Part shown: positions 180 to 52,738 of the stretch, in pieces
How the letters are laid out: every line of letters begins with the position of its first letter
Numbering within the stretch: the first letter of the stretch is position 1
DNA from: a virus
Length of the DNA: 52,858 nucleotides
Direction: 5' to 3' (one strand)
IMG/VR virus record: IMGVR_UViG_3300032213_003065
Location: 1 to 52,858 of that record
Program-made: the position numbers and the translations under genes
Notes under the pieces: model-generated
Told to the model about the DNA's origin: nothing
The model's input: the letters and a program-made list of their open reading frames with translations, nothing else
Databases searched by the model: none

Positions 180-217
180 TAAATATACAATAAATCTTTT
201 TAATTATAATAAAAGAA
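180..217 (-). promoter_or_regulatory. family 1-like promoter, weak upstream box
   Basis: Core ATTGTATATTTAAG is present, but the upstream box reads TTCTTT. It serves the 48-aa membrane protein. Confidence 0.5.
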
Positions 218-222
218 TTTAT

Positions 223-432
223 TTATTTAAAATTAATATTTTCTAATAACTTTACTAAATATAATTCTAAAACTTTATATAATTCTTTATCATTATTCTT
301 ATATAACTCTTTAATACTATCTACATCTTCTAAAAAATCCATATTTTCTATCTCATCATCCCCAAATTCATTATATATTCTTTCTTCAATATCACCTATT
401 TTACTACAAATAATTTTTATTTCATTTTTCAT
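223..432 (-). CDS. hypothetical acidic protein, 69 aa
   Basis: Not recognised. It is rich in Glu, Asp, Asn and Ile, has no cysteine and should be mostly helical and soluble. The start ATG is 24 bases below a TATATTTA core. It is one of the run of tiny, separately promoted genes filling the left end, a pattern typical of phage host-takeover genes; that role is inference. Confidence 0.6.
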   Translation of the reverse strand: MKNEIKIICSKIGDIEERIYNEFGDDEIENMDFLEDVDSIKELYKNNDKELYKVLELYLVKLLENINFK

Positions 433-455
433 ATCTTAACTTTTTTATTAATACT

Positions 456-493
456 TAAATATACGAAATATTATTTTAATCTAAATGAGGGAC
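456..493 (-). promoter_or_regulatory. family 1 promoter
   Basis: Core TTCGTATATTTAAG with upstream box TCCCTC, one base closer than usual. The box is the 3' arm of the hairpin at 487-507. It serves the 69-aa gene. Confidence 0.75.
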
Positions 494-507
494 TATTTAA
501 GTCCCTC
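487..507 (-). terminator. hairpin across a stop codon
   Basis: GAGGGACT and AGTCCCTC form a perfect 8-bp stem with a 5-base loop. The hairpin spans the stop codon (493-495) of the preceding gene, and its 3' arm doubles as the next promoter's upstream box. There is no long U-run, so termination is likely rather than certain. Confidence 0.6.
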
Positions 508-792
508 AATAATTTTTTTCACTATATTTCCTTCAAATATTTCATCAAATTTTTCATCTAATACTTTATTATAATTTATTCCCCACTCTTTGTTCATGTC
601 AACAAACTTTCTCCAATCTGAAATTTCCATTCCCATATAGGTTTGGTTTTCAATGTCCATGAATTCAATACCATCAATATTACCTTCACATACAATAACC
701 TGAGCTATCAATTTTACTTTTAAAGGGCCTATTTCAACAGGTGCACTTAAGTTAAAGAATTCTAATTTACTTTCTAATTTAATACTGTTCAT
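493..792 (-). CDS. hypothetical protein, 99 aa (internal start)
   Basis: This is the C-terminal part of the 205-aa frame, beginning MNSIKLESKL. It is listed separately because its ATG sits 22 bases below a TATATTTAAG core and an A-rich leader, the same arrangement as the independent genes around it. It may be made alone as well as in fusion. Predicted soluble; function unknown. Confidence 0.6.
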   Translation of the reverse strand: MNSIKLESKLEFFNLSAPVEIGPLKVKLIAQVIVCEGNIDGIEFMDIENQTYMGMEISDWRKFVDMNKEWGINYNKVLDEKFDEIFEGNIVKKIIEGLK

Positions 793-1110
793 ATTTTTAT
801 TTTTTAATTTACTTAAATATACAAAATCATTTTTAATTTCTACTTTAGGAAGATCATTTATAAAATAAATAAATTTATAAGATCTACCTTTAACTTCTTC
901 CCTTCTTATTTTACCTGAATACAAGGCACGTCTTAAACAATCAGCATATTTTTTATTTGATTCCCGAGTTGAACCTCTAAAAAAACCATATATGCTTCCC
1001 ATTATACTATTTTCAGGTGTGCCAGGGTTGTGTTTTAAGAAATCAACTATTTCCTCTTGGTTAACCATTCTTCTTTTAACACCAAATCTATTTGTTTTAA
1101 ATTTATTCAT
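493..1110 (-). CDS. 205-aa ORF, apparently two genes read through in frame
   Basis: Residues 1-95 look like a small winged-helix-type domain: VNQEEIVDFLKHNPG near residue 16, and basic residues around 60-80. Residues 96-106 (FVYLSKLKNKN) are the translation of a complete promoter and leader at 793-851. From Met107 (ATG at 792) a second, 99-aa protein begins with its own promoter spacing. The likely reading is that an upstream gene of about 95 codons lost its stop and now runs in frame into the gene at 493-792. Neither half is recognised. Confidence 0.6.
   Translation of the reverse strand: MNKFKTNRFGVKRRMVNQEEIVDFLKHNPGTPENSIMGSIYGFFRGSTRESNKKYADCLRRALYSGKIRREEVKGRSYKFIYFINDLPKVEIKNDFVYLSKLKNKNMNSIKLESKLEFFNLSAPVEIGPLKVKLIAQVIVCEGNIDGIEFMDIENQTYMGMEISDWRKFVDMNKEWGINYNKVLDEKFDEIFEGNIVKKIIEGLK
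814..851 (-). promoter_or_regulatory. family 1 promoter inside an ORF
   Basis: Upstream box TTCCTA, 23 bases, then GTATATTTAAG. All of it lies within the coding frame of the 205-aa ORF and points at the internal ATG at 792. Confidence 0.65.
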
Positions 1111-1134
1111 CTTATTATCTTTTTAATTTATACT

Positions 1135-1172
1135 TAAATATACTAATAATATTTTTAGTAAGAGTAGAGGAA
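1135..1172 (-). promoter_or_regulatory. family 1 promoter
   Basis: TTCCTC, 23 bases, GTATATTTAAG. It serves the gene starting at 1110. Confidence 0.8.
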
Positions 1173-1190
1173 TATATTAAAACATTCCTC
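1167..1190 (-). terminator. GAGGAAT / ATTCCTC hairpin
   Basis: A 7-bp stem with a 10-base loop containing the stop codon of the 64-aa gene. The 5' arm is coding (last codons for Gly-Met-Phe region); the 3' arm is the TTCCTC box of the next promoter. Confidence 0.55.
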
Positions 1191-1371
1191 CTGCAATTAC
1201 TAATCTTCTTCTATAACCGATTTCAGTATCATAAACATTTTCTACATTAACATCAGTTTTTTCAATTCTGTTTACATAAACAAAATCTGTAGGGTCCATT
1301 CCTGTAACTACTACTTTTAAATTCTTGTTTTCAACTTTTTCTAATACTTCAATTAATTCTTGTACTGTCAT
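1177..1371 (-). CDS. hypothetical phage protein, 64 aa
   Basis: Starts MTVQELIEVLEKVENKNLKV and ends in a RRRLVIAGGMF-like strand, so it is probably a small helix-plus-sheet domain. Short proteins with this MTVxELIxxLEKxxN opening are common in phages, but no function is known to me. It has its own promoter, and a hairpin overlaps its stop. Confidence 0.65.
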   Translation of the reverse strand: MTVQELIEVLEKVENKNLKVVVTGMDPTDFVYVNRIEKTDVNVENVYDTEIGYRRRLVIAGGMF

Positions 1372-1399
1372 AACTTTATATTTTTAACTTATTAATACT

Positions 1400-1437
1400 T
1401 AAATATACGAAATAACTTATTAGTAAGAGTAGAGGAA
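1400..1437 (-). promoter_or_regulatory. family 1 promoter, consensus match
   Basis: TTCCTC, 23 bases, GTATATTTAAG. It serves the 64-aa gene at 1371. Confidence 0.85.
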
Positions 1438-1725
1438 TTATTTTATTTCTACTAAATTCAATTCTAAAGCTTTATTAATTCTTTCTAAAACATTATTGTA
1501 TTCACTTCCTTCACTATAACTTATTTCTATAGCAAAATCTTCAATTCTTTCAAACATGTTTTCTACATAAGCTCCTTCTACAAACATTTGCATATCAAAT
1601 AATAATTGATCATAACTTGAAAAATCATAATATAAATCAATATCTGAATCTTCTAATTGATTGTGAATTTTCAATAAATTATTGAATTCTTTTTCTGCTA
1701 ACTTTGTTAATACTAATTTTTTCAT
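1438..1725 (-). CDS. hypothetical acidic protein, 95 aa
   Basis: Not recognised. The N-terminus MKKLVLTKLAEKEF is basic and the rest is strongly acidic with many Tyr, Asp and Glu residues. No cysteine, no membrane segment. Its stop codon directly abuts the TTCCTC box of the next gene, the usual packing here. Confidence 0.65.
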   Translation of the reverse strand: MKKLVLTKLAEKEFNNLLKIHNQLEDSDIDLYYDFSSYDQLLFDMQMFVEGAYVENMFERIEDFAIEISYSEGSEYNNVLERINKALELNLVEIK

Positions 1726-1748
1726 ATCTTAACTTTTTAATTTATACT

Positions 1749-1786
1749 TAAATATACGAACGTTATTTTTAGATAGATATAAGGTA
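1749..1786 (-). promoter_or_regulatory. family 1-like promoter, divergent upstream box
   Basis: Consensus TTCGTATATTTAAG core, but TACCTT in place of TTCCTC. It serves the 95-aa gene. Confidence 0.6.
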
Positions 1787-1790
1787 GTTT

Positions 1791-1937
1791 TTACCAATTA
1801 TACCATCTAAAACTTCCGCTACCACATATACATTTAAATTTTCTAGCCCATTTTTGTAATGTAAAATTATAAACACGGTTTGTTTTTTTACCACAGCTAT
1901 AACACTGACATTTTTTAATTTCTGTATGATGATTCAT
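1791..1937 (-). CDS. small zinc-ribbon protein, 48 aa
   Basis: Cysteines at residues 10, 12, 15, 36 and 38 (CQCYSCG then CICG) with basic residues between them indicate a zinc ribbon. The start ATG at 1937 lies below a family 1 promoter. Small zinc ribbons of this kind bind nucleic acid or modify host transcription in phages; the role here is inference. Confidence 0.65.
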   Translation of the reverse strand: MNHHTEIKKCQCYSCGKKTNRVYNFTLQKWARKFKCICGSGSFRWYNW

Positions 1938-1958
1938 ATTTTATATTTTTAATTTAAT

Positions 1959-1996
1959 TAAATATACAAACAAAATCGTTAGTAAGAGTAGAGGAA
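1959..1996 (-). promoter_or_regulatory. family 1 promoter
   Basis: TTCCTC, 23 bases, GTATATTTAAT. It serves the 48-aa zinc-ribbon gene. Confidence 0.8.
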
Positions 1997-2398
1997 TTAT
2001 TTTACTAAATGTCCCCAAATATCAGTTCTTGAAACATCAAATTCCCTTACTTCAGAATCAAACCAACCATAATCTTCAAAACATTTTCTAACTTGTTCAT
2101 AAATGTCTTTACCATCAATTTCAATTGTTGGTTTTTTCATTTTAGGTTCATATGGTCCCCCATACATGTCAAATTCCCCATTTTGAATAACTGTAATATG
2201 TTTTTCTTGTTTTGTTATTCCTTCTATATTAAATTCATCTCCATCAAAATAAATTTCACCACTTTTAAGGTTAAGGTCACTTACAATTATTTCAGCTAGT
2301 TCTTCTACTGAATCATAACATTCACTTACTGAAGAGGAAATATCATATTCAATTTCACTAATAATTTCTTTAATTTCTTTTACTTTAATTACATTCAT
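1997..2398 (-). CDS. hypothetical protein, 133 aa
   Basis: Not recognised. A helical acidic N-terminus (residues 1-45) is followed by a likely beta-rich half with FDMYGGPYEPKMKKPTIEI near residue 80. Ends YGWFDSEVREFDVSRTDIWG. No membrane segment or cysteine pair. It has its own promoter. Confidence 0.65.
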   Translation of the reverse strand: MNVIKVKEIKEIISEIEYDISSSVSECYDSVEELAEIIVSDLNLKSGEIYFDGDEFNIEGITKQEKHITVIQNGEFDMYGGPYEPKMKKPTIEIDGKDIYEQVRKCFEDYGWFDSEVREFDVSRTDIWGHLVK

Positions 2399-2418
2399 AA
2401 TTTAACTTTTTAATACTT

Positions 2419-2456
2419 TAAATATACGAAACATTATTTTAATTAGATGAGGGGAA
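2419..2456 (-). promoter_or_regulatory. family 1 promoter inside the upstream gene's end
   Basis: TTCCCC, 23 bases, GTATATTTAAAG. The upstream box lies inside the last codons of the preceding 104-aa gene, with no hairpin there. That argues the box is conserved for promoter function and not only as a terminator arm. Confidence 0.8.
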
Positions 2457-2753
2457 TCTTAACATATACTCAATTTCCCTTTTAGCATTATCTGTAATAT
2501 TTTTACTCATACCTCCAATATGCCATTCAATTTTTTCGTCATATCCTATTTTACGATATTCCTTCCAATCGTAAATTGTAACAACATCTTCATTGTCATC
2601 TTCCAATTCCCATTCGATATTTACTTTATCTTCGCCGTCATTGCTTTCATAAGTGGGTTCACCTATTATTTTAATTAATTCATTCACAGATGCTCTAACT
2701 GTTGAATAATGAAAACTTGTACCACTTGAACTTCTACTTGTTGATTTTAACAT
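2439..2753 (-). CDS. hypothetical protein, 104 aa
   Basis: Not recognised. Ser-rich N-terminus (LKSTSRSSSGTSF), then EWELEDDNEDVVTIYDWKEY near the middle, giving an alternating hydrophobic/acidic pattern consistent with a small beta sheet. Its last codons overlap the upstream box of the next promoter. Confidence 0.65.
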   Translation of the reverse strand: MLKSTSRSSSGTSFHYSTVRASVNELIKIIGEPTYESNDGEDKVNIEWELEDDNEDVVTIYDWKEYRKIGYDEKIEWHIGGMSKNITDNAKREIEYMLRFPSSN

Positions 2754-2776
2754 AACTTTTATTTTTTAATTTGAGA

Positions 2777-2814
2777 TGAATATACGAAATAAATCGTTAG
2801 TGAGAGGAGAGGAA
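2777..2814 (-). promoter_or_regulatory. family 1 promoter, altered core
   Basis: TTCCTC, 23 bases, GTATATTCA. It serves the gene at 2753; the core carries a T-to-C change. Confidence 0.75.
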
Positions 2815-2822
2815 TTATTTTA

Positions 2823-3041
2823 TTAATCTAATAAAGGTTGATATTCAATGCAAGTTGTTAAAGATGCATTATACAATTTTAATTTAGGCTTATCTAAACT
2901 GATTTTTGCTTCTTCATTATTTGGTAAAATTACATGATAAATGATAGAAGATTTTGTATAAGTGATTTTTTGAATTTTGAAACCTGAATTTTCAATTTCT
3001 TGTGTTGCTAAAATTTCTAATTGTGATTCTAATTTTTTCAT
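2823..3041 (-). CDS. hypothetical protein, 72 aa
   Basis: Not recognised. An amphipathic N-terminal helix is followed by a short beta-rich stretch (IQKITYTKSSIIYHVILP near residue 24). One Cys near the C-terminus. Own promoter and A-rich leader. Confidence 0.6.
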   Translation of the reverse strand: MKKLESQLEILATQEIENSGFKIQKITYTKSSIIYHVILPNNEEAKISLDKPKLKLYNASLTTCIEYQPLLD

Positions 3042-3062
3042 ATCTTAACTTTTTAATTTGCT

Positions 3063-3100
3063 TAAATATACGAACGTTATTTTACTCGTAAGTGGAGGAA
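3063..3100 (-). promoter_or_regulatory. family 1 promoter
   Basis: TTCCTC, 23 bases, GTATATTTAAG. It serves the gene at 3041. Its box is the 3' arm of a GAGGAAT/ATTCCTC inverted repeat (3095-3127) whose other arm is inside the next gene's coding end. Confidence 0.8.
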
Positions 3101-3103
3101 TTA

Positions 3104-3340
3104 CTATAAAATAGCTTCATATTCCTCTACACCATATTTTCTATCTTTATTATCGTAAGAATATCTTACACCTAATTCTCTTACATTCTGTAACTGATAA
3201 AATTCAATAATTTCATTTAATGATGAAAATTGTTTACCAGGATCAGACCATGTTTGTTTTCCATAAGCATTAGGTGAAATTAATTTATAACCTTGCCATG
3301 TTCCATCTAAATCAAGAATTCTATTTATTAATACTTTCAT
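3104..3340 (-). CDS. hypothetical protein, 78 aa
   Basis: Not recognised. Contains DLDGTWQGYKLISPNAYG and ends in an acidic VEEYEAIL. The codons for VEE carry the 5' arm of the 3095-3127 inverted repeat. Probably a compact soluble domain. Confidence 0.6.
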   Translation of the reverse strand: MKVLINRILDLDGTWQGYKLISPNAYGKQTWSDPGKQFSSLNEIIEFYQLQNVRELGVRYSYDNKDRKYGVEEYEAIL

Positions 3341-3358
3341 AACTTTTTAATTTATACT

Positions 3359-3396
3359 TAAATATACGAATAAAACTATAGATAACGACGGGGGAA
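3359..3396 (-). promoter_or_regulatory. family 1 promoter
   Basis: TTCCCC, 23 bases, GTATATTTAAG. It serves the gene at 3340. The box is part of the 3391-3415 hairpin. Confidence 0.8.
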
Positions 3397-3415
3397 GAAA
3401 ATATATTTCCTCCCC
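3391..3415 (-). terminator. hairpin upstream of the 3340 gene
   Basis: A 10-bp stem (GGGGAGGAAA with TTTCTTCCCC on the minus strand, one G-U pair). It marks the downstream edge of the non-coding gap at 3416-3746. Confidence 0.5.
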
Positions 3416-3746
3416 TTGTATCAATTTTATCTATTATATATTCAGTTTTCAAATCTTTTAATAGATTTTATCAATCCACCCCCCACCCCCCATCACCTCT
3501 ATATATAGGGGGGGAAGGGGGGTTCAAAAAAAAGTATATACTTTAAAAACTTTAAAAAAGGGTTGGGGGGGTGTGGGAAAGGGTTAGATCCCTGACCTTT
3601 CCAATTCCATACCACACCAATCGTTTTCCACATACATTTTCCGTTGTAATTATTTTGTGACATCCGTTCGTAAGTGTTTGTCATAGATTTTATCAATACA
3701 CCTTTAATGACTATTGATTTTATCAATCGAATAGTTTTGAACCCAA
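3416..3746. repeat. non-coding gap with G/C tracts and three 12-base repeats
   Basis: No credible gene. The plus strand has C-runs at 3478-3491, G-runs at 3508-3522 and more G-runs at 3560-3583. GATTTTATCAAT occurs three times, at 3464, 3686 and 3716. The G/C tracts contrast sharply with the AT-rich surroundings and could fold as hairpins or quadruplexes. An 83-codon minus-strand frame here translates to low-complexity Pro/Phe sequence and is not called. Confidence 0.6.
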
Positions 3747-3938
3747 TCACTTAAATCTCGAATAATTCCCTATCCAATTATCTAATTCAACTCCTCTTCT
3801 AATGTCGTAACCGGTATTAGCTTCTAAATTCTTTTCCATTGTCCATAATGCTAATTCCCTATACACCTCTTCTTTTAATACTTTCTTCCAATCAGCTAAT
3901 TGTTCATTTTGTATTTGAATACCTTGTTCTACTGTCAT
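3747..3938 (-). CDS. hypothetical protein, 63 aa
   Basis: Not recognised. Mostly helical and charged, beginning MTVEQGIQIQNEQLADWKK. Own promoter. The gene sits between two repeat-rich non-coding stretches. Confidence 0.55.
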   Translation of the reverse strand: MTVEQGIQIQNEQLADWKKVLKEEVYRELALWTMEKNLEANTGYDIRRGVELDNWIGNYSRFK

Positions 3939-3958
3939 ATTATTATCTTTTTATACTT

Positions 3959-3996
3959 TAAATATACGTTATTTTTTTTTCGTCGTCATAGAGGTC
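3959..3996 (-). promoter_or_regulatory. family 1 promoter, variant
   Basis: GACCTC, 23 bases, GTATATTTAAAG. It serves the gene at 3938. Confidence 0.65.
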
Positions 3997-4062
3997 GTTT
4001 CGTAAGTTTCTTTCGTCAATATATTTCGTAAGAGTCCGTCGTCATTATGTTCGTAAGTGTTT
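3981..4062. repeat. TTCGTAAG and CGTCGTCAT short repeats
   Basis: TTCGTAAG occurs at 3999, 4025 and 4050, with a further copy at 3667. The copies at 3666 and 4049 extend to an identical 14-mer (GTTCGTAAGTGTTT). CGTCGTCAT occurs at 3981 and 4037. This could be a protein-binding array or remnants of duplicated promoter regions. Confidence 0.5.
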
Positions 4063-4094
4063 TTGTTATTACTGGATTATCTCTATTATATTTT

Positions 4095-4283
4095 TTATTC
4101 TCCTTCATCCATTATTTCATCTCCAATATCTAATATTAATTGGGTTTTATCATATTCATGTTCTTCTTCATCAAATGTTTCCATTGTGAATGTTATTCTT
4201 CCCATGGCTTCTAAAGCTTGTTCTAATGTCATTACTTTACCATAGAATTTTTCTAATTGGAATAATATTTGTATTTCTGTCAT
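4095..4283 (-). CDS. hypothetical acidic protein, 62 aa
   Basis: Not recognised. Very acidic C-terminal half (FDEEEHEYDKTQ, DIGDEIMDEGE), one of several acidic mini-proteins in this block that could act as nucleic-acid mimics; that is speculation. Leader ends AAAGGTTATG. Confidence 0.6.
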   Translation of the reverse strand: MTEIQILFQLEKFYGKVMTLEQALEAMGRITFTMETFDEEEHEYDKTQLILDIGDEIMDEGE

Positions 4284-4306
4284 AACCTTTATTTTTTATT
4301 TATACC

Positions 4307-4344
4307 TAAATATACGAATGATTTTTTTAATATGATTGAGGGAA
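4307..4344 (-). promoter_or_regulatory. family 1 promoter
   Basis: TTCCCT, 23 bases, GTATATTTAGG. It serves the gene at 4283. Confidence 0.75.
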
Positions 4345-4346
4345 TA

Positions 4347-4553
4347 TTATTTATTCTTTAATAATCTCTCTACTTCATTCATTATATCTTCTTCATAGTT
4401 TCTATTCATTACTTCTTTAGGGTAACCTTCAGGTAATTCATCTAAATTATCTAATTGCCAATCTAAAAATTGTTCAATATCAAACAAACCCCAATCATCA
4501 CTTATTCCTAATAGGCAACTAGCTGCATCTTTTATTTGTTCTTTCTTATTCAT
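4347..4553 (-). CDS. hypothetical protein, 68 aa
   Basis: Not recognised. Contains CLLGISDDWGLFDIEQFLDW near residue 13 and an acidic helical tail (EEDIMNEVERLLKNK). Predicted all-helical. Own promoter. Confidence 0.6.
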   Translation of the reverse strand: MNKKEQIKDAASCLLGISDDWGLFDIEQFLDWQLDNLDELPEGYPKEVMNRNYEEDIMNEVERLLKNK

Positions 4554-4576
4554 AACTTATTTATTTTATTTATACT

Positions 4577-4614
4577 TAAATATACGATCTATTTTTTACT
4601 TTAAAGTTGAGGAA
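4577..4614 (-). promoter_or_regulatory. family 1 promoter
   Basis: TTCCTC, 23 bases, GTATATTTAAG. It serves the gene at 4553. The box pairs with GAGGAATT inside the upstream gene (inverted repeat 4609-4649). Confidence 0.8.
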
Positions 4615-4916
4615 TTTAATAATTTAAACGTTTTTTCAATCAATTCCTCATTACTAAAATCTTTATTTATATCATACCCCAACCAATATAATCTTCTTTT
4701 AACTAAATTACCATTATCAAATATCTTAACAATAACTTTATGTTTAATTTTATCGTCCATTTTATGAGTAAATAAACCATAATCATCAGTTAATTCAATT
4801 ATAAAATTATCTTTTTCATATTTACTAACTTCAAGTCTATCAATTATAGTTTTAGTTTCATCTTCCCAATATGGTTTTTGAGTTTCACTTAATATTTTTG
4901 TTTCAATTAATTTCAT
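4596..4916 (-). CDS. hypothetical protein, 106 aa
   Basis: Not recognised. Likely a small alpha/beta domain: beta-rich N-terminal part (FIIELTDDYGLFTHKMDDK, HKVIVKIFDNGNLVKRRLYW) and a helical C-terminal tail. Its 3' end carries both the inverted-repeat arm and the next promoter's upstream box. Confidence 0.65.
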   Translation of the reverse strand: MKLIETKILSETQKPYWEDETKTIIDRLEVSKYEKDNFIIELTDDYGLFTHKMDDKIKHKVIVKIFDNGNLVKRRLYWLGYDINKDFSNEELIEKTFKLLNSSTLK

Positions 4917-4937
4917 AACTTATTTTTTTAATTTACT

Positions 4938-4975
4938 TAAATATACGAACGATTTTATTAGATAAAATAGGGGAA
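4938..4975 (-). promoter_or_regulatory. family 1 promoter
   Basis: TTCCCC, 23 bases, GTATATTTAAG. It serves the gene at 4916. Its box is the 3' arm of the 4970-4989 terminator. Confidence 0.8.
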
Positions 4976-4989
4976 ACTTTTGTTTCCCC
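4970..4989 (-). terminator. intrinsic terminator-like hairpin
   Basis: Perfect 8-bp stem GGGGAAAC / GTTTCCCC with an AAAA loop, followed by TATTTTAT on the minus strand. It lies five bases past the stop of the 255-aa gene. Confidence 0.7.
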
Positions 4990-4994
4990 TTTTA

Positions 4995-5762
4995 TTATTT
5001 AGCCAAATAATTAACTATTTCTAATTTATCTTTTGGTAATCTATTATCAATTTGTTTTATAATAGACCAAGTTCCATCTTCATAATATTTTATTTTAACA
5101 AAATTTGTATTTGAAAATGTAATATCAAGACAACTAATATAATAACCTCCGTTTCTCCCAAAACCCATTTGCCATTCTTCTTTTTCTTCAATTTTACAAT
5201 TTGGGTCCAAATTGATAAAATCTTTTTTTAAGTTTTGTTTAACTATTTCTTTTTTATTTTTAGCAATTTGTCTTTGTTTATAATTTTCAATAGCATCTTT
5301 TATTTTAACAAGTGCCGTTTTATAAGAATATTTTTGATATCTATTTGAAATACTACTTGGTAATTCAAATTTTAAATCATCAGTAACCCCCCAAATTGAT
5401 CCCATGTTATTTATAAATTCTATTCTAGCAGATGTTACTTGAATATCTTCAATTTTATCTTCTTCTTTCAATTTAAACTTAGTATATGATGGTAAGTCAA
5501 AATTTCTACAATTGACTAAAGTAGTAAGCTCAACATAATCACCTAATCCATCTTCAACTAATTTATTGTATAAATTTTCAATGTTTTTGAATTCTCTTTT
5601 TATCTTTTCAATATCATTAAGAAAATGTTTTTTGTAATATTCAACATCTTTTTGATACTTAATTTGAGATTCAATTTCTATCTTTGCTTTTTCAATTCTT
5701 TCTTCTTCTCTTTTAAGTTCAATCATTTTGATTTCTGCTTCTGATAATTTAATTTCTGTCAT
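4995..5762 (-). CDS. coiled-coil protein, 255 aa, unknown function
   Basis: Residues 1-75 are almost entirely charged heptad-like helix (LSEAEIKMIELKREEERIEK and onward), a probable coiled coil. The middle and C-terminal parts are mixed, ending in a beta-rich segment around FGRNGGYYISCLDITFSNTN. It is the largest gene in the left block and likely a structural or regulatory scaffold. Its own promoter and a terminator make it a single-gene unit. Confidence 0.7.
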   Translation of the reverse strand: MTEIKLSEAEIKMIELKREEERIEKAKIEIESQIKYQKDVEYYKKHFLNDIEKIKREFKNIENLYNKLVEDGLGDYVELTTLVNCRNFDLPSYTKFKLKEEDKIEDIQVTSARIEFINNMGSIWGVTDDLKFELPSSISNRYQKYSYKTALVKIKDAIENYKQRQIAKNKKEIVKQNLKKDFINLDPNCKIEEKEEWQMGFGRNGGYYISCLDITFSNTNFVKIKYYEDGTWSIIKQIDNRLPKDKLEIVNYLAK

Positions 5763-5784
5763 AACTTTATTTTTTTAATTTACT

Positions 5785-5822
5785 TAAATATACGAATAAT
5801 TTTTTAGATTGAGTTAAAGGAA
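5785..5822 (-). promoter_or_regulatory. family 1 promoter
   Basis: TTCCTT, 23 bases, GTATATTTAAG. It serves the 255-aa gene. Confidence 0.75.
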
Positions 5823-5825
5823 TTT

Positions 5826-6074
5826 TTATCTTATTAAATTAATTTTAATTCCTCCAATACATTCACTGCAATTAATTTTTAATTCATTACAAAACATTAA
5901 GAGTTTATGTTGTGTAATATCTATGTTTTCATAGAATGTATTTTTAATTGTAAATGTATTGTTTTTGTAATCTGTAAACATCATTGGGTATGCTTTAAAT
6001 TCATTATAAAGCAATTTTTTAAACTCTTTTAATGTGATGTTTGTATTCGGTAACATTAGATTATTTAACTTCAT
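5826..6074 (-). CDS. hypothetical protein, 82 aa
   Basis: Not recognised. Two cysteines near the C-terminus (MFCNELKINCSECIGG) give CX5CX2C, too few for a confident zinc site. Otherwise a mixed helix/strand protein with no membrane segment. Confidence 0.6.
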   Translation of the reverse strand: MKLNNLMLPNTNITLKEFKKLLYNEFKAYPMMFTDYKNNTFTIKNTFYENIDITQHKLLMFCNELKINCSECIGGIKINLIR

Positions 6075-6095
6075 AACTTTATTTTTTAATTTACT

Positions 6096-6133
6096 TAAAT
6101 ATACGAATTATTTTCTAAATAATATTAGAGGAA
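6096..6133 (-). promoter_or_regulatory. family 1 promoter
   Basis: TTCCTC, 23 bases, GTATATTTAAG. It serves the gene at 6074. Confidence 0.85.
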
Positions 6134-6156
6134 ATAGTATTTTATAATAAAATGAG

Positions 6157-6552
6157 TTAATATGAATATTCTCTAAACCCATTTGGGAAAAAGAATCTCA
6201 TTACTATTTTTTCAGAAAATATAATTTGAAGATATAATCCTGTATATGTTGTATAATTTAACATTTCATGTAAATCATACTTATAACCTGCATCTGTTTC
6301 TGATGTGAATATTGGGTCAACTTGAGTTAAATGGAATGTCTCTGTTTGTCCATTTGTATATATTATCATTAATCCATTATCATTTTCATTAAATGATAAT
6401 TTTGATGGTTTGGGAAAATATATTGCCTTCTCCCCATATTCTTGAAATAAATATGATTTTGAATAATAATCCCAACCATGTTTTGTCTTAACCATTTGTG
6501 AATATGATGACATAGTTACCATCATCAATATTGATGTTATTAATTTTTTCAT
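6157..6552 (-). CDS. exported protein, 131 aa
   Basis: A clear signal peptide (MKKLITSILMMVTMSSYSQ) with cleavage expected after the SYSQ region, typical of Bacteroidetes secreted proteins. The mature part is beta-rich with aromatic residues (HGWDYYSKSYLF, TYTGLYLQIIF). It should act in the periplasm or outer envelope. Superinfection exclusion or envelope modification would fit; not shown. Confidence 0.7.
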   Translation of the reverse strand: MKKLITSILMMVTMSSYSQMVKTKHGWDYYSKSYLFQEYGEKAIYFPKPSKLSFNENDNGLMIIYTNGQTETFHLTQVDPIFTSETDAGYKYDLHEMLNYTTYTGLYLQIIFSEKIVMRFFFPNGFREYSY

Positions 6553-6571
6553 AACTTTATTTTTAATATAT

Positions 6572-6609
6572 TAAATATACTAAATATATTTTAGTTTAAT
6601 GTGGGGGAA
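6572..6609 (-). promoter_or_regulatory. family 1 promoter
   Basis: TTCCCC, 23 bases, GTATATTTAAT. It serves the exported protein at 6552. The box overlaps the 3' coding end of the next upstream gene. Confidence 0.75.
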
Positions 6610-6764
6610 GAAGGAGCAACATTGTTATCACTTATCATGAATGGTTTTTCTTCTATATAATCTTCATCAAAACCCCATAACTGAAGTTCACCAAATATAC
6701 CTCCATTTATTATTTCTTCTAATTCTTCAAAAAATTTGTTAAAATCCTTGTTTTTATTTTTCAT
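6591..6764 (-). CDS. hypothetical acidic protein, 57 aa
   Basis: Not recognised. Starts MKNKNKDFNKFFEELEEI, then a Gly/aromatic patch (GGIFGELQLWGFDEDYIEE). Below 60 residues but supported by its own promoter and by the same leader layout as its neighbours. Its last codons include the TTCCCC box of the next promoter. Confidence 0.6.
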   Translation of the reverse strand: MKNKNKDFNKFFEELEEIINGGIFGELQLWGFDEDYIEEKPFMISDNNVAPSSPTLN

Positions 6765-6786
6765 AACTTTTATTTTTTAATTTACT

Positions 6787-6824
6787 TAAATATACGAAAT
6801 TAAACTCTAAACTAATTAGAGGTC
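6787..6824 (-). promoter_or_regulatory. family 1 promoter
   Basis: GACCTC, 23 bases, GTATATTTAAG. It serves the 57-aa gene at 6764. Confidence 0.7.
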
Positions 6825-7024
6825 TTAAACCATTTAGATAATTCCTCTATTGGGAATAGATGTTCTTCATTTTCATCATCTATTATTACAATACAGTCAT
6901 TATCGTTATCATCTATAGTGAGATCAATAATTTCATATTCTTTACCTACAATGAGGGATTCTATACCTGTGCTTCTCATTACACAAGGATCAATTGCTTC
7001 TAATTTTTTTCCAATTTTTATCAT
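6812..7024 (-). CDS. hypothetical protein, 70 aa
   Basis: Not recognised at family level. The pattern GKKLEAIDPCVM..VGKEYEIIDLTIDDND..CIVIIDDENEEHLFPIEEL resembles small SH3-like beta barrels common in phages (strand, VGKxY, strand, acidic turn, strand). Binding partner unknown. Confidence 0.65.
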   Translation of the reverse strand: MIKIGKKLEAIDPCVMRSTGIESLIVGKEYEIIDLTIDDNDNDCIVIIDDENEEHLFPIEELSKWFKTSN

Positions 7025-7053
7025 AACTTTTATTTTTTAATTTTTAATTTACT

Positions 7054-7091
7054 TGAATATACGAAATATATTTTACTTACTGTTGGAGGAA
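7054..7091 (-). promoter_or_regulatory. family 1 promoter, altered core
   Basis: TTCCTC, 23 bases, GTATATTCAAG. It serves the gene at 7024. Confidence 0.8.
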
Positions 7092-7345
7092 GGTTTTGGT
7101 TTGTTATCAATTTCACTTGCACGTGAACCTTTAATTAATGAGGTAGGTTTTATAGTATTATTCCATTCCATCATATTTTCATATTCTTCTGTTAAACATT
7201 CAATAGCATAATTTTCATCAATTGGGTCTTCATCTTCAAAATATCCTATATCTTCAACATAATCTTTCCAATTTCTATAACCTATTTCATTTAAAAAAAT
7301 AAATAACTTTGGAAATCTTTTTTTGAATTGATTGTTAGTTAACAT
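7073..7345 (-). CDS. hypothetical protein, 90 aa
   Basis: Not recognised. Basic N-terminus (MLTNNQFKKRFPKLF), acidic middle (EDIGYFEDEDPIDENY), Ser/Pro-rich tail. Predicted soluble. Unlike its neighbours to the left it has a TTTGG-type promoter. Confidence 0.6.
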   Translation of the reverse strand: MLTNNQFKKRFPKLFIFLNEIGYRNWKDYVEDIGYFEDEDPIDENYAIECLTEEYENMMEWNNTIKPTSLIKGSRASEIDNKPKPSSNSK

Positions 7346-7361
7346 ATTTTATTATTTATTA

Positions 7362-7394
7362 TAAATACACAAAATGTATTTTAAATGACCAAAT
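7362..7394 (-). promoter_or_regulatory. family 2 promoter
   Basis: TTTGG, 18 bases, GTGTATTTA. It serves the gene at 7345. The sequence from the box towards the core (TTTTAAATGACCAAATAG on the plus strand) repeats exactly in the tRNA promoter at 7579-7611. Confidence 0.7.
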
Positions 7395-7401
7395 AGAAAA
7401 T

Positions 7402-7417
7402 TTGCTTGTCTTTCCAA
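7402..7417 (-). terminator. short hairpin after the tRNA-like gene
   Basis: GCTTG and CAAGC pair around a 6-base loop, followed on the minus strand by AAATTTTC. It may end the tRNA transcript. Confidence 0.4.
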
Positions 7418-7478
7418 GCTGTCAACTAAAATTTCTTGGTAGTGGCACCTTTACACAGCCAATTAGTTCTACTTGTGA

Positions 7479-7564
7479 TGGTAGTCAGGACAGGAATCGA
7501 ACCTGTATCTACGAGATGGCCAATTCCAGTAACTCGTTGCTCTAACCAATTCCGCCACCTGACT
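7479..7564 (-). tRNA. tRNA-like gene with an enlarged anticodon loop
   Basis: Acceptor arms AGTCAGG and CCTGACT pair perfectly, followed by A and an encoded CCA. The T arm is ACAGG-TTCGATT-CCTGT. The D loop has GGTTA but the D stem keeps only about two pairs. The only possible anticodon stem is ACGAG/CTCGT, enclosing 17 bases instead of 7. Eight bases in that loop (GGAATTGG) repeat the D-region octamer. No standard anticodon can be assigned. It may be a decayed tRNA, one needing processing, or a tRNA mimic. Confidence 0.7.
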
Positions 7565-7578
7565 TATTTCTTATAATA

Positions 7579-7611
7579 TAAATATACAAAATTTATTTTA
7601 AATGACCAAAT
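7579..7611 (-). promoter_or_regulatory. combined family 1 + family 2 promoter for the tRNA-like gene
   Basis: TTTGG, 18 bases, GTATATTTA, with TTCCTA directly beside the TTTGG at 7611-7616. The core ends 15 bases before the tRNA 5' end, a suitable distance for a short leader. Confidence 0.75.
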
Positions 7612-7618
7612 AGGAATA

Positions 7619-8041
7619 TTAAATATCTAATTCGTTTATTTCTTCCAATACAAAGTCATCTTCATTGATCTCAAACGAACCACTTTCCTCCGTTTTAAAC
7701 CAGTTAATTGGTTCATCAATATTCTCCTCATCTTCCTTGAAGAACTTGGAATTTACAACGACTTTACCGTTATCATCCATTCCTTCTAATAGACCTGCGT
7801 TTTCATATAAATTCCATACACGATCTTTCCAAACATCTAATTTAATTCCTTCAACAGTTTGCTTATAACCACCTTCAACTGTTAGTTTAGCTAATTCTAA
7901 TAAAAATTCCTGACATAGTATGTCTAATTCACCTCCTATTGGAAAATTTTCACCATATTTGGTTCTACCATTAGTACCTGCTTTATAAATTGATTTAATT
8001 TGATTGAATTGATCAGTAATTGGTTTAATTTTCTTTGCCAT
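7619..8041 (-). CDS. hypothetical protein, 140 aa
   Basis: Not recognised. Lys-rich start (MAKKIKPITDQFNQIKS), a central helical part (GGELDILCQEFLLELAKLTVEGG) and a very acidic C-terminal tail from about residue 104. Predicted cytosolic. Transcribed towards the tRNA-like gene from its own promoter. Confidence 0.65.
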   Translation of the reverse strand: MAKKIKPITDQFNQIKSIYKAGTNGRTKYGENFPIGGELDILCQEFLLELAKLTVEGGYKQTVEGIKLDVWKDRVWNLYENAGLLEGMDDNGKVVVNSKFFKEDEENIDEPINWFKTEESGSFEINEDDFVLEEINELDI

Positions 8042-8065
8042 TATCTTTATTTTTTATTTATGAAT

Positions 8066-8103
8066 TAAATATACGAACTATTTTTTTGATTAGAGTGAGG
8101 GAA
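8066..8103 (-). promoter_or_regulatory. family 1 promoter
   Basis: TTCCCT, 23 bases, GTATATTTAAT. It serves the 140-aa gene. Confidence 0.75.
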
Positions 8104-8392
8104 GAGCTAAATACTCATTAGTATCTAAAATAACATTGTTTATAAAGTCTTGTAGTTGTTTTTCTAATTCTCTACTTCTTTCATAACCGTTCTCGTTTCT
8201 TACTTTATGAGTAATTATATCAAAATCATTTCTACTCATATCAAATCTATATTCTTCATCATTGTCAATGATTGAAAATGTAAAATAACCATGTCCTTCT
8301 TCATCATTAAAATCATCTCCTATTGTAAAGATATTTTTAACTTGTAAAATAATTTCTTTTGTTAATAATTTTTTCTTTTCTGTTTTTGTCAT
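8090..8392 (-). CDS. hypothetical protein, 100 aa
   Basis: Not recognised. Helical N-terminus (MTKTEKKKLLTKEIILQ), then FNDEEGHGYFTFSIIDNDEEYRF, a likely beta hairpin, then helix. Own promoter; leader ends AAGGTTATG. Confidence 0.6.
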   Translation of the reverse strand: MTKTEKKKLLTKEIILQVKNIFTIGDDFNDEEGHGYFTFSIIDNDEEYRFDMSRNDFDIITHKVRNENGYERSRELEKQLQDFINNVILDTNEYLALPSL

Positions 8393-8413
8393 AACCTTTA
8401 TTTTTAATTTACT

Positions 8414-8451
8414 TAAATATACGAACTATTTTTTTGATTGGATGGGAGGAA
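8414..8451 (-). promoter_or_regulatory. family 1 promoter
   Basis: TTCCTC, 23 bases, GTATATTTAAG. It serves the gene at 8392. The box is the 3' arm of a GAAGAT/ATCTTC hairpin (8449-8463) that covers the upstream gene's stop codon. Confidence 0.85.
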
Positions 8452-8454
8452 GAT

Positions 8455-8628
8455 TTAATCTTCAACATATACATCTTTTATATCACAAAAAGGAAAAAAT
8501 TTATTAAATACCCTCCTTGCTTCATCTTCACTTTTAGCTGTGTGAGTTGATTTGAATTCTTTTCCTTTATGTTCAGGATTTCCTAATGGGGAATTGGTTG
8601 TGTATATAATTATAAATTCTTTGTTCAT
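8455..8628 (-). CDS. hypothetical protein, 57 aa
   Basis: Not recognised. The pattern NKEFIIIYTTNSP..KSTHTAKSEDEARRVFNKFFP..DIKDVYVED fits a small ferredoxin-like beta-alpha-beta fold often seen in phage mini-proteins. It begins 4 bases after the 144-aa gene ends and has no promoter of its own, so the two form an operon. Confidence 0.6.
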   Translation of the reverse strand: MNKEFIIIYTTNSPLGNPEHKGKEFKSTHTAKSEDEARRVFNKFFPFCDIKDVYVED

Positions 8629-8632
8629 TGTC

Positions 8633-9067
8633 TTATTTTTTAACTATAATTAAATAACCTTTATCTACTGATTTGAATTGTTCAATTTTCATTCCTTTAA
8701 ACGAATCATCAAAAGATCCTAGATCTAGATGTTCACATAAATAAGGACCACCTGATGGGTCTATCATATCGATTATATTTGGGTTTGAGTAAACTAATTT
8801 ACCATATTTAGAACATATTTCATGTTTTATATAATTACCATTTGTATCATAAAAACCTTCATGAACTAGTTCTTTAAATTTTTCAATTGGAATTTGCTCA
8901 CTTATATCAGTGGTGTCATTTCTATATGCTTCATAAGCATCTTCGTAAACATTTGGATAGCCCATTCTCATATATGTAAAAGGGCCTTTTATTAAGACAT
9001 TACCATCTTCTGTTTTACTAAAGGTAAATATATTACCGTAACGATTTTTATATTCTATTTTACTCAT
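8633..9067 (-). CDS. hypothetical protein, 144 aa
   Basis: Not recognised. Beta-rich start (NRYGNIFTFSKTEDGNVLIKG), a Tyr-rich acidic middle, and DMIDPSGGPYLCEHLDLG near residue 100, a phrase-like segment suggesting a conserved phage family. First gene of a two-gene operon. Confidence 0.65.
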   Translation of the reverse strand: MSKIEYKNRYGNIFTFSKTEDGNVLIKGPFTYMRMGYPNVYEDAYEAYRNDTTDISEQIPIEKFKELVHEGFYDTNGNYIKHEICSKYGKLVYSNPNIIDMIDPSGGPYLCEHLDLGSFDDSFKGMKIEQFKSVDKGYLIIVKK

Positions 9068-9091
9068 AACTTATTTATTTTATTTATACTT

Positions 9092-9129
9092 TAAATATAC
9101 GAAAGATTATTTTAAACAACCGAGAGACT
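9092..9129 (-). promoter_or_regulatory. family 1-like promoter, weak upstream box
   Basis: AGTCTC, 23 bases, GTATATTTAAAG. It serves the 9067/8628 gene pair. Confidence 0.6.
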
Positions 9130-9499
9130 TTAAATATTTTATACATTCTTTTGTATAATATTGTTGTATATCGTTTGCTTCTATTTCTTGAGGATGATCT
9201 TCATATCCGAATTCTTTTAACAAAGAATAATAATAATTCATTTTTTTATGATGGTTCAATTGTAAATGATGTACATATTCATGTATAATAGTTTCAATTA
9301 AATTCTTTACAGATGGAATATTATATGGGAAAAGAACAATAATTCCTACTCTATATTCTCCAAATCTTGTCTTGTATCTTCTATCAAATATTAAATTAAT
9401 TTCAGGACGTTCTTTACTATCAAATTTCAATTCACAAAAATCAATAACCTTTTCAGGTATTACATCTATTAATTCTAAAACTTTTTCTTTTGATGTCAT
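9107..9499 (-). CDS. putative zinc metallopeptidase, 130 aa
   Basis: An HExxH motif (TIIHEYVHHLQL, about residues 69-80) provides two zinc-binding histidines and a catalytic Glu. A downstream HPQEIEAN (about residue 100) supplies a plausible third ligand Glu, as in gluzincin or SprT-like minimal peptidases. No signal peptide, so it should act in the cytoplasm. The substrate is unknown; single-domain phage peptidases can be host-protein or anti-defence proteases, which is inference. Confidence 0.7.
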   Translation of the reverse strand: MTSKEKVLELIDVIPEKVIDFCELKFDSKERPEINLIFDRRYKTRFGEYRVGIIVLFPYNIPSVKNLIETIIHEYVHHLQLNHHKKMNYYYSLLKEFGYEDHPQEIEANDIQQYYTKECIKYLKSLGCLK

Positions 9500-9516
9500 A
9501 TTTTCTTATTAATACT

Positions 9517-9554
9517 TAAATATACGAAAATAAAAGTACCTCCCAATGAAGGAA
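9517..9554 (-). promoter_or_regulatory. family 1 promoter inside a terminator
   Basis: TTCCTT, 23 bases, GTATATTTAAG. It serves the peptidase. The upstream box sits in the 5' arm of the 9533-9562 hairpin on the minus strand. Confidence 0.75.
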
Positions 9555-9562
9555 GATACTTT
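9533..9562 (-). terminator. strong terminator hairpin
   Basis: A 12-bp stem (AAAGTATCTTCC with GGGAGGTACTTT, G-U pairs allowed) with a 6-base loop, followed by TTATTTTC. It ends the short transcript carrying the 29-aa gene. Confidence 0.75.
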
Positions 9563-9588
9563 CGGTTTATAATTAGTTTGTTGTCGGC

Positions 9589-9678
9589 TTACTTATTTTT
9601 TCGATCCCTTACCCAAAATATTAATGTAATAAATGTTATAATTAGTATTGATATTATTTCCTTAATTTTAAATTCCAT
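9589..9678 (-). CDS. membrane micropeptide, 29 aa
   Basis: MEFKIKEIISILIITFITLIF is one membrane-spanning helix, followed by a basic tail (WVRDRKNK). It has a consensus promoter upstream and a terminator downstream, a complete transcription unit for a very small protein, which supports it being real. Confidence 0.55.
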   Translation of the reverse strand: MEFKIKEIISILIITFITLIFWVRDRKNK

Positions 9679-9698
9679 TATTTTATTTTTAATTTACT

Positions 9699-9736
9699 TA
9701 AATATACGAATCAAATTTTAAATTACAACAGAGGAA
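9699..9736 (-). promoter_or_regulatory. family 1 promoter
   Basis: TTCCTC, 23 bases, GTATATTTAAG. It serves the 29-aa membrane peptide. Confidence 0.85.
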
Positions 9737-11621: not shown

Positions 11622-12043
11622 TATTTAATAATTTTTAAATTCATAATCGGATGTATTTCCGTAATATTATGACCTTTATCAAAAACATAAGGACCTTCAA
11701 TTTTTATACTATCACCTTCTTTAGGTAATGTTATTTCATTTTTATAAAACCAACAAATTGGAAATACTGATGGTACAGCACATACAATTTCACCTACCAT
11801 ACATCCATTTTCATCTTTATAGTTATTTTTTACCAATAATGAACTATCACCTATCTTTAATCTTATATGTATATCACCATCAATATCCGATTCAATTTTA
11901 TCCACTTTACCCACTAATACTTTACTACTATCTAATAAAACTAGTCTTTCGGGATGATGAACTCTATTACATGGGCAATCTTTTATCGACACTAAACCTA
12001 ATAAAAATATAATCGATAATGTAACTAATAATGTTGTTTTCAT
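11621..12043 (-). CDS. exported or membrane-anchored protein, 140 aa
   Basis: N-terminal hydrophobic segment (LLVTLSIIFLLGLVSI) followed by CPCNRVHHPERL, then a probable OB-like beta domain (GKVDKIESDIDGDIHIRLKIGD) and YVFDKGHNITEIHPI near the C-terminus. His residues in both segments hint at metal binding. It is translationally coupled to thyA through TAATG although it is predicted to leave the cytoplasm. Confidence 0.65.
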   Translation of the reverse strand: MKTTLLVTLSIIFLLGLVSIKDCPCNRVHHPERLVLLDSSKVLVGKVDKIESDIDGDIHIRLKIGDSSLLVKNNYKDENGCMVGEIVCAVPSVFPICWFYKNEITLPKEGDSIKIEGPYVFDKGHNITEIHPIMNLKIIK

Positions 12044-12062: not shown

Positions 12063-12100
12063 TAAATATACGAAAAATTATATTAAATCCAAAAGAGGAA
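12063..12100 (-). promoter_or_regulatory. combined promoter for the thyA operon
   Basis: TTCCTC at the family 1 spacing and TTTTGG next to it (17 bases from the core), then GTATATTTA. Drives 12043, thyA and the VOC gene. Confidence 0.75.
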
Positions 12101-13679: not shown

Positions 13680-13919
13680 TTAATTTAAAATTTCGGTTTT
13701 TAATTCTTTCAAGAACATACTTTGTTCAGGTGTCATTTGAAGATTATCTAACATAAAATTGACATTATGATAAGATGATGATTTAGCTAACACCATTAGA
13801 TAATCTAATCTATGTTTTTCCATAACTTCATCTCCTGATGGAATAACTTGGACTTTTAAAAATTGATTAAGATTAACTCTAATCAATTCTTGGGCTTGTT
13901 CTTTAATTGTTGTTTGCAT
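13680..13919 (-). CDS. hypothetical protein, 79 aa
   Basis: Not recognised. Predicted helical throughout (TIKEQAQELIRVNLNQFLKV, TPEQSMFLKELKTEIL). First gene of a two-gene operon with a combined promoter. Confidence 0.6.
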   Translation of the reverse strand: MQTTIKEQAQELIRVNLNQFLKVQVIPSGDEVMEKHRLDYLMVLAKSSSYHNVNFMLDNLQMTPEQSMFLKELKTEILN

Positions 13920-13936
13920 TTGTTAAATTTATACCT

Positions 13937-13974
13937 TAAATATACGAATAATATTTCTAGAATCCAAATAGGAA
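13937..13974 (-). promoter_or_regulatory. combined promoter
   Basis: TTCCTA and TTTGG side by side at their usual distances, then GTATATTTAAG. Serves 13919 and 13675. Confidence 0.75.
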
Positions 13975-14329: not shown

Positions 14330-14601
14330 GCCTTTGCTCTAGCATATCCAACATATTTACCATTTATTTCATTGAAAAATTGTCTTTTAGTAAGTGGTAA
14401 TTCTGCTTGTTCTTCCTCAAATGATTTATGTTTCTTAACATGTTTCATTTCAACACTTACTGGTCCATTTTGGGTTATTTTACTATTAAAATGCCATATT
14501 TCACTGCTTCCATCCTCTGAAATATATTCTCGAGTGTATTTAATTGGTTTATCTTCTATTGAGATGAGTGCTGGTCTACCTCTTCTTGATTTATTTTCCA
14601 T
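14311..14601 (-). CDS. hypothetical protein with AT-hook-like start, 96 aa
   Basis: MENKSRRGRPALIS contains RRGRP, the core of an AT-hook DNA-binding motif. The remainder has a beta hairpin (KITQNGPVSVEMKHVKKHKS) and a helical tail. The start at 14601 is preferred over an upstream in-frame Met at 14727, because it overlaps the end of the SWIM gene by only 11 bases and drops a low-quality Val/His/Ile leader. Confidence 0.65.
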   Translation of the reverse strand: MENKSRRGRPALISIEDKPIKYTREYISEDGSSEIWHFNSKITQNGPVSVEMKHVKKHKSFEEEQAELPLTKRQFFNEINGKYVGYARAKALGILK

Positions 14602-15074: not shown

Positions 15075-15112
15075 TAAATATACGAAAGCAAATTTAAAAT
15101 ACCAAGGAGGAA
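15075..15112 (-). promoter_or_regulatory. combined promoter
   Basis: TTCCTC and CTTGG merged into one block at both standard distances, then GTATATTTAAG. Serves the SWIM gene. Confidence 0.75.
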
Positions 15113-52600: not shown

Positions 52601-52738
52601 CTATTTGTTTCTTTTTATTTTGTGTTTAATATACGAAAGAACAGGTAATGAACCAAATCCTCCCATTAAAAAAGTAAAAATATTTGGATGCCAATGTTCA
52701 CCACATAGGCCAAGAGAATGTTTTAAAATTTCTAACAT
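52601..52738 (-). CDS. small membrane protein, 45 aa
   Basis: MLEILKHSLGLCGEHWHPNI then IFTFLMGGFGSLPVLSYIKH, one membrane segment and a basic end. Its last codons encode part of the next promoter. Two small membrane genes in a row suggest an envelope role. Confidence 0.58.
   Translation of the reverse strand: MLEILKHSLGLCGEHWHPNIFTFLMGGFGSLPVLSYIKHKIKRNK
52626..52658 (-). promoter_or_regulatory. family 2 promoter within a gene
   Basis: TTTGG, 18 bases, GTATATTAA, all inside the coding frame of the 45-aa gene. Serves the 34-aa peptide, dpdA and the 552-aa gene. Confidence 0.75.

Follow-up and report, generated by a model that had tools for sequence, protein, structure and literature searches.

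A promoter box held at one distance in the tiny-gene cluster of a putative T4-like Bacteroidota phage is the reverse complement of the box in its relatives

Results

A cluster of tiny genes with one promoter layout

The window analyzed here is the whole of virus record IMGVR_UViG_3300032213_003065, a linear record of 52,858 bases with a G+C content of about 28%. Its larger genes lie almost entirely on the minus strand, and its left 10 kb hold a cluster of tiny genes whose starts share a layout that we call family 1: a TATATT core and, at one distance upstream, a TTCCTC box. Seven related phages carry the reverse complement of this box at nearly the same place. Gene calls are simple open reading frames (ORFs), and the relatives are fragments of undefined completeness.

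The window encodes a gp43-like family B polymerase (42299-45025) and both clamp loader subunits (large, 37709-38632; small, 36834-37289), the T4-type replisome by which the T4-like superfamily is recognized. Judged by these predicted proteins, it is therefore a fragment of a T4-like phage, putatively one infecting water-dwelling Bacteroidota. More than 80 viral contigs carry related polymerases; that of L017, a contig of 11.9 kb that lacks the early region, is 99% identical and the others 50-81%. The nearest cultured phage is Flavobacterium phage immuto by the conserved 16364-16993 protein (51% identical) and Mel-JY01 by the polymerase (31%). The capsid protein of one relative had no match among cultured phages at an expect value of 1e-5, and the gp23, gp20 and terminase genes used as markers in Far-T4 phylogeny fall outside the window.

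Positions within a promoter are counted from T(0), the first T of TATATT in TATATTTA, which corresponds to about -12 by the Flavobacterium johnsoniae consensus (PMC6847099). A scan of the first 10 kb found 26 cores upstream of an ATG; the one at 6699 is intragenic, and 25 promoters, all on the minus strand, were kept. They are listed here with the hybrid sites described below.

180..217, minus: family 1, weak box TTCTTT, core TATATTTAAG; gene 9-155
456..493, minus: family 1, box GTCCCT with CC at -28/-27, doubling as the 3' arm of a hairpin; gene 223-432
814..851, minus: family 1, box TTCCTA (846-851), inside ORF 493-1110 above the in-frame ATG 792; gene 493-792
1135..1172, minus: family 1, box TTCCTC; ORF with start 1110
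1400..1437, minus: family 1, box TTCCTC; gene 1177-1371
1749..1786, minus: family 1, box TACCTT; gene 1438-1725
1959..1996, minus: family 1, box TTCCTC; gene 1791-1937
2419..2456, minus: family 1, box TTCCCC; gene 1997-2398
2777..2814, minus: family 1, box TTCCTC; gene 2439-2753
3063..3100, minus: family 1, box TTCCTC; gene 2823-3041
3359..3396, minus: family 1, box TTCCCC; gene 3104-3340
3959..3996, minus: family 1, box GACCTC; gene 3747-3938
4307..4344, minus: family 1, box TTCCCT; gene 4095-4283
4577..4614, minus: family 1, box TTCCTC, the 3' arm of a strong predicted hairpin; gene 4347-4553
4938..4975, minus: family 1, box TTCCCC, the 3' arm of a strong predicted hairpin; gene 4596-4916
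5785..5822, minus: family 1, box TTCCTT; gene 4995-5762
6096..6133, minus: family 1, box TTCCTC; gene 5826-6074
6572..6609, minus: family 1, box TTCCCC; gene 6157-6552
6787..6824, minus: family 1, box GACCTC; gene 6591-6764
7054..7091, minus: family 1, box TTCCTC; gene 6812-7024
7579..7616, minus: hybrid, TTCCTA and TTTGG; tRNA-Ser 7479-7564
8066..8103, minus: family 1, box TTCCCT; gene 7619-8041
8414..8451, minus: family 1, box TTCCTC; gene 8090-8392
9092..9129, minus: family-1-like, degenerate box AGTCTC; gene 8633-9067
9517..9554, minus: family 1, box TTCCTT; gene 9107-9499
9699..9736, minus: family 1, box TTCCTC, the rightmost of the cluster; short ORF with start near 9678
12063..12100, minus: hybrid, TTCCTC and TTTTGG; gene 11621-12043
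13937..13974, minus: hybrid, TTCCTA and TTTGG; gene 13680-13919
15075..15112, minus: hybrid, TTCCTC and CTTGG; gene 14591-15055
52626..52661, minus: hybrid, AGGA and TTTGG, the sole AGGA-form site in the window

Several lines of evidence confirm the core, the box and the single spacing. All 25 gene starts share the core (C/T/A)GTATATT(T/C)A, with TATATT in every one, and in 23 of them CC stands at exactly -28/-27 within TTCCTC or a close variant; the two without it are 187 (TTCTTT) and 9099 (AGTCTC). When TTCCTC was fitted at each offset from -45 to -13, offset -30 gave 10 exact sites, 17 with at most one mismatch and 23 with at most two, and the remaining offsets gave no exact site and at most three sites with one mismatch each. 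Exact matches to TTCCTC-N20..26-GTATATTTA number 10 in the window, every one of them with N23; 100 dinucleotide shuffles gave 0.00. When gapped word pairs ahead of the window's genes were counted de novo, TTCC-N25-GTATAT came first (20 genes), and other spacings averaged 0.0. An earlier sequence-only reading of this DNA had claimed that about 25 starts in the left 10 kb share TTCCTC-N23-core, with the spacing fixed in nearly all cases, the variants TTCCCC, TTCCTT and GACCTC and one tiny gene to each promoter; all of this holds.

The genes served are small and, in the limited selection of proteins scanned, mostly without family matches; family 1 serves them singly, and they are probably early genes. 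The promoter at 814-851 is internal to an open frame in which two apparent genes run together with no intervening stop (815-1110 of ORF 493-1110). The cluster also contains two apparently non-coding islands (3470-3750 and 3960-4080) with C/G runs and repeated TTCGTAAGTGTTTGTCA-like words, and an island resembling them is found at 1650-2300 of contig L582.

The box might instead belong, as the 3' arm, to a hairpin at which the RNA of the upstream gene is terminated or processed, with the spacing arising from tight packing. The upstream stop codon is often within about 20 bases of the box, and strong pairing with an arm at the end of the preceding gene is predicted for about 10 of 28 boxes (GAGGAA arms number 6 where 0.5 are expected; mean pairing is 0.585, compared with 0.504 for shuffles). 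The majority of boxes, however, form no hairpin and still hold their sequence and spacing, and a terminator arm requires neither a fixed sequence nor a fixed distance to the next core. The complementary sequence at the same place in the relatives would, moreover, make a different RNA. The hairpin was rejected as the main cause of the box, and we regard this explanation as very unlikely. Because the other boxes keep sequence and spacing without a hairpin, the hairpin-forming boxes look, from their predicted folds, like terminators that reuse the box.

The -33 element is absent from family 1 and present in a second class

The TTCCTC box spans -30 to -25 and sits 24 bp above TATATT; with T(0) taken as -12, its place is about -42 to -37. 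At -23 to -21, where TTG of the -33 element would stand, none of the 25 family-1 sites has TTG. A second class of promoter in the window, TTTGG-N19-TATATT, does carry the element. Of its 14 matches, one stands at the tRNA-Ser gene and the other 13 are found rightward of 13 kb; at least two, those at 22100 and 28230, are well within ORFs and may have arisen by chance. The TTTGG of this class spans -24 to -20, so that the TTCCTC box is about five bases beyond the host -33 box, as the sequence-only reading had it. The replication-side genes of the window carry TTTGG, and both classes share TTCG directly upstream of the core. Beyond the 25 family-1 sites there are further TTCC sites at 12070 and 15082 (TTCCTC) and at 13944 and 7586 (TTCCTA), and these four are hybrids that hold a second element, TTTGG, CTTGG or TTTTGG, beside the box. 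For the hybrid before gene 14591-15055, the homologues in L119 and L128 have TTTGG only.

Several right-hand TTTGG promoters also have TTCCT-like letters just below TTTGG (TTTGGNTTCCTA), and TTCC occurs three times at N12 before YGTATATT, as if these letters recurred closer to the core by about one turn.

The loss of the -33 TTTG bears on the possibility that the box is an operator, at which a repressor or silencer turns the early genes off. A single asymmetric site per promoter in fixed orientation recalls the stoperators of mycobacteriophage L5. An operator, however, needs no loss of TTTG, which is missing wherever the box is strong; T4-like phages are lytic, and no repressor gene was seen. 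We consider an operator a slim prospect.

Host promoters and cultured phages

In Flavobacterium the -7 element has the form T-12 A-11 T-8 T-7 T-6 G-5 and the -33 motif is weak (PMC6847099). The -33 TTTG is dispensable, yet full activity requires it, and a promoter without it is weak (PMC2483708); some compensation is therefore expected in family 1. Compared with the TTTG/TAnnTTTG promoters of the Bacteroidota primary sigma factor (PMC6847099, PMC2483708), family 1 is alike in its TATATT at -7 and its A-rich spacer. It differs in lacking the -33 TTTG, which the window's TTTGG class has, and in that TATATTTA has A at -5 and not the nearly invariant G.

Boxed layouts of both forms were counted in 149 Bacteroidia genomes and occurred 0 to 4 times per genome, about as often as reversed control patterns; the boxed layout was accordingly rejected as a host promoter class. 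(GroEL, used as bait to gather host genomes, recovered mainly other phyla.) This chance level also weighs on a reading in which RNA polymerase itself recognizes the box, through the carboxy-terminal domain of the host alpha subunit or through sigma region 4, with no extra factor. Such a reading has the attraction that the box at -42 to -37 adjoins the -33 element, that the core is of host type, that early genes need the host enzyme at once and that hybrids with TTTGG exist. Against it stand the lack of enrichment in the host genomes and the GG/CC specificity, which is unlike that of UP elements, these being A/T tracts; nor should an intrinsic contact flip between sister phages. Polymerase acting alone is unlikely in our estimation.

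Immuto (vB_FspM_immuto, NC_055915; host Flavobacterium sp. LMO8) has 26 TTG-N20-TATnTTTAG sites with one spacing, mostly ahead of small genes between 60 and 77 kb. The layout of one promoter per tiny gene therefore exists with a host-type element. These promoters resemble family 1 in serving one tiny gene each, in their TATATTTAG core and in their fixed spacing, and differ in having TTG at the host-type position (-23 to -21) instead of the window's TTCC box. A scan of the immuto genome for boxes returned one AGGA match and no TTCC series, and a search of Mel-JY01 for both box series found neither. From this comparison, the host-type element appears to have given way, in the boxed phages, to a box some five bases farther upstream.

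Joint reading of box and core by a sigma factor or polymerase of the phage's own is scarcely probable. Other genes of the relatives are preceded by a third motif, TATTTATA, so that the group can probably re-programme polymerase. The TATTTATA motif has no box, however, and the family-1 core is shared with the TTTGG class and with the TTG class of immuto; the reader of the core is therefore most simply a sigma factor of host type.

The box is turned round in related phages

In phage G008 the same core is preceded by A/G-AGGA where the window has TTCCTC, and likewise in G001, G003, G004, G012, G014 and G018. On the coding strand, AGGA-N23-GTATATT occurs 21 times in G001, 16 in G003, 26 in G004, 21 in G008, 9 in G012, 7 in G014 and 13 in G018, a total of 113; G002 also has 26 sites but has its early region in common with G004. 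The window, by comparison with the 7 to 26 sites of the relatives, has one AGGA-N23 site, which also carries TTTGG. Conversely, there are 23 copies of TTCC-N25-GTATATT in the window, and each relative has one or none. The spacing is as narrow as in the window: nearly all AGGA sites have N22 before YGTATATT, with five at N21 in G008 and otherwise scattered singles, and a reversed-pattern control gave at most one match per genome. The de novo word-pair count ranked the box first in two relatives as well. TTG stands at -23 to -21 in 3 of the 113 AGGA sites, and TAG is kept there in some.

The GG of AGGA lies at -27/-26 and the CC of the window at -28/-27, so that one box is the reverse complement of the other with a shift of one base. 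This relationship, which goes beyond the sequence-only reading, was evaluated under 336 mappings (24 base relabellings, both directions and seven shifts) by comparing base frequencies, column by column, between 26 sites of the window and 169 of the relatives. The best of the 336 was the reverse complement shifted by one base, and the identity mapping was strongly negative. Reverse-complement controls with permuted columns reached the observed score in 4 of 20,000 cases.

Homologous genes show the exchange at conserved positions. Before gene 1177-1371 the window has TTCCTC and the homologues TGAGGA and AATGGA; before 2439-2753 it has TTCCTC and the L120 homologue AGGGGA; before 7619-8041 it has TTCCCT and the homologues in L127 and L119 AAAGGA and GAAGGA. 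ORF 493-1110 has a profile match (2.6e-9) to a protein family of about 111 residues, most members of which are preceded by AGGA-type boxes, the matching part, judged by eye, being the C-terminal half from the in-frame ATG 792. The homologue of a fifth gene, 3747-3938, is without a clear box.

The AGGA form is common elsewhere. In viral contigs AGGAAT-N18-TTCGTATATT was found in at least 120 stretches, many with 3 to 12 sites (up to 12 in one), and an off-register control pattern gave single matches only. TTCCTC-N20-TTCGTATATT was found in 16 stretches with one site each, and another scan gave single matches in 7 contigs; these single matches look like chance. The AGGA phages fall into three distinct groups in the polymerase tree, of which two are well supported; a few AGGA-like sites also occur in a further, separate group, G007/G011. 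Since the AGGA phages are spread over separate groups, AGGA is more likely, on this tree, the older state of the box. The window and L017 form a lone branch whose place is uncertain, and the deep branching is not resolved.

Further features of the AGGA-type phages were recorded. Contig L582 (IMGVR_UViG_2529292698_000002) has AGGA-type tiny-gene promoters. In G004 and at G001 loci, for example upstream of L124:4100-5728, there is a third promoter-like motif, TATTTATAA, without an upstream box. It lies 11-32 bases before many of the relatives' genes outside the tiny-gene clusters (in G004, before 28 of 237 genes, against 11 with TATAAATA) and reads as the T4 late box TATAAATA on the opposite strand. 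The product of L126:16461-17198 resembles, by eye, a late sigma factor of the T4 gp55 type; in PHROGs it weakly matches only an unknown family.

Discussion

The reading that we favor, with moderate confidence, is that family 1 consists of host-sigma promoters in which a trans-acting activator, sitting at about -42 to -37, takes the place of the -33 contact. Host RNA polymerase with its primary sigma factor would recognize the TATATT core at -7, and the contact of sigma region 4 with the -33 TTTG would be missing. An activator, most likely encoded by the phage, would bind the TTCCTC box and recruit or remodel the polymerase, so that transcription would start at the family-1 sites. In most related phages the same activation element would be AAGGA, turned round in the phage of the window. 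Given the inversion, either the activator tolerates both orientations, its docking being independent of orientation, or its docking has changed, or it was replaced in the window lineage. An activator at a fixed place is the simplest account of family 1, and the terminator, operator and polymerase-only readings are less likely. The sequence-only reading had proposed a phage-specific class recognized by a phage-encoded factor or by the host polymerase in modified form. The first part is supported by the tight layout, the separate TTTGG class, the AGGA form in relatives and the chance level in Bacteroidia genomes; the second is in keeping with the sigma-type core and the lack of TTTG at -33, and no factor was found for it.

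Some observations weigh against an activator of this kind. The TTCC form comes from one contig only, on which the flipped state rests. No match resembling MotA or AsiA came from Pfam and PHROGs, with which a small number of the proteins were scanned, and among the protein families that boxed relatives have and unboxed ones lack there was no clear DNA-binding activator. If the genes are immediate-early, an activator that the phage must first make would arrive too late, except where it is injected or supplied by the host.

The most widespread small protein of the AGGA-type early regions (L127:5262-5585 and relatives; 17 of 30 sources) is a repeat protein with KRGRPVNENSVRQKRIKELE-like (KRGRPVNENS-like) units. 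It is very basic and AT-hook-like, is present in G021, which has no AGGA sites, and gave no profile match in the window. As a candidate for the factor it is a lead only.

In T4 middle promoters, MotA and AsiA act by sigma appropriation, and the MotA box, TGCTTtA centred at -30 and 12 +/- 1 bp from the -10 element, serves replication genes (PMC2988021). Family 1 is alike in that a host sigma core is kept (TATATT in 25 of 25), a box stands in place of the -35/-33 element, the distance is nearly fixed and the copies per genome are many. It differs in the box itself (TTCCTC, or AGGA in relatives), in its position 24 bp above TATATT, and in its gene set, which consists of tiny genes, whereas T4 middle promoters serve replication and nucleotide genes and the replication side of the window has TTTGG. 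Because position, sequence and gene set differ, family 1 is not a T4 middle promoter; by analogy, it may work like one. Neither the TTCC nor the AGGA box was described in the literature searched.

The marbox of MarA, SoxS and Rob is likewise an asymmetric activator site whose orientation varies between promoter types. There orientation is tied to distance, class I sites being reverse and far and class II sites forward and near (PMC12052159), whereas here both orientations occur at nearly equal distance, in different phages. In view of that coupling, a flip at near-equal distance would be unusual. That one activator family, docking independently of orientation, follows an asymmetric site turned round at a near-unchanged distance across about 25 promoters, so that one promoter element would be flipped throughout the genome, is a tentative suggestion that we hold to be doubtful. 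The reverse-complement box points to a putative activator for which a search can now be made.

At 45797-49726 and 51689-52486 the window has FolE-, QueE-, QueD- and QueC-like genes and a relative of the immuto protein annotated DpdA; the queuosine-type proteins, like the GroEL/GroES-type ones, were named from translations read by eye and from the immuto annotation. This gene set suggests a 7-deazaguanine modification of the phage DNA, which could affect recognition of the GG/CC of the box.

In uncultivated Far-T4 phages, T4 transcription-control genes went undetected and the transcription programme needs experiments (PMC4360716). Whether or not the present group belongs to Far-T4, its boxes offer a handle on a possible stand-in for MotA/AsiA in a T4-like group of Bacteroidota phages. 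Each genome provides dozens of promoters, the boxes can be compared between homologous genes in which they are inverted, and one unboxed relative is in culture. If both forms of the box prove to serve one factor, the inversion would test how far an activator depends on the orientation of its DNA.

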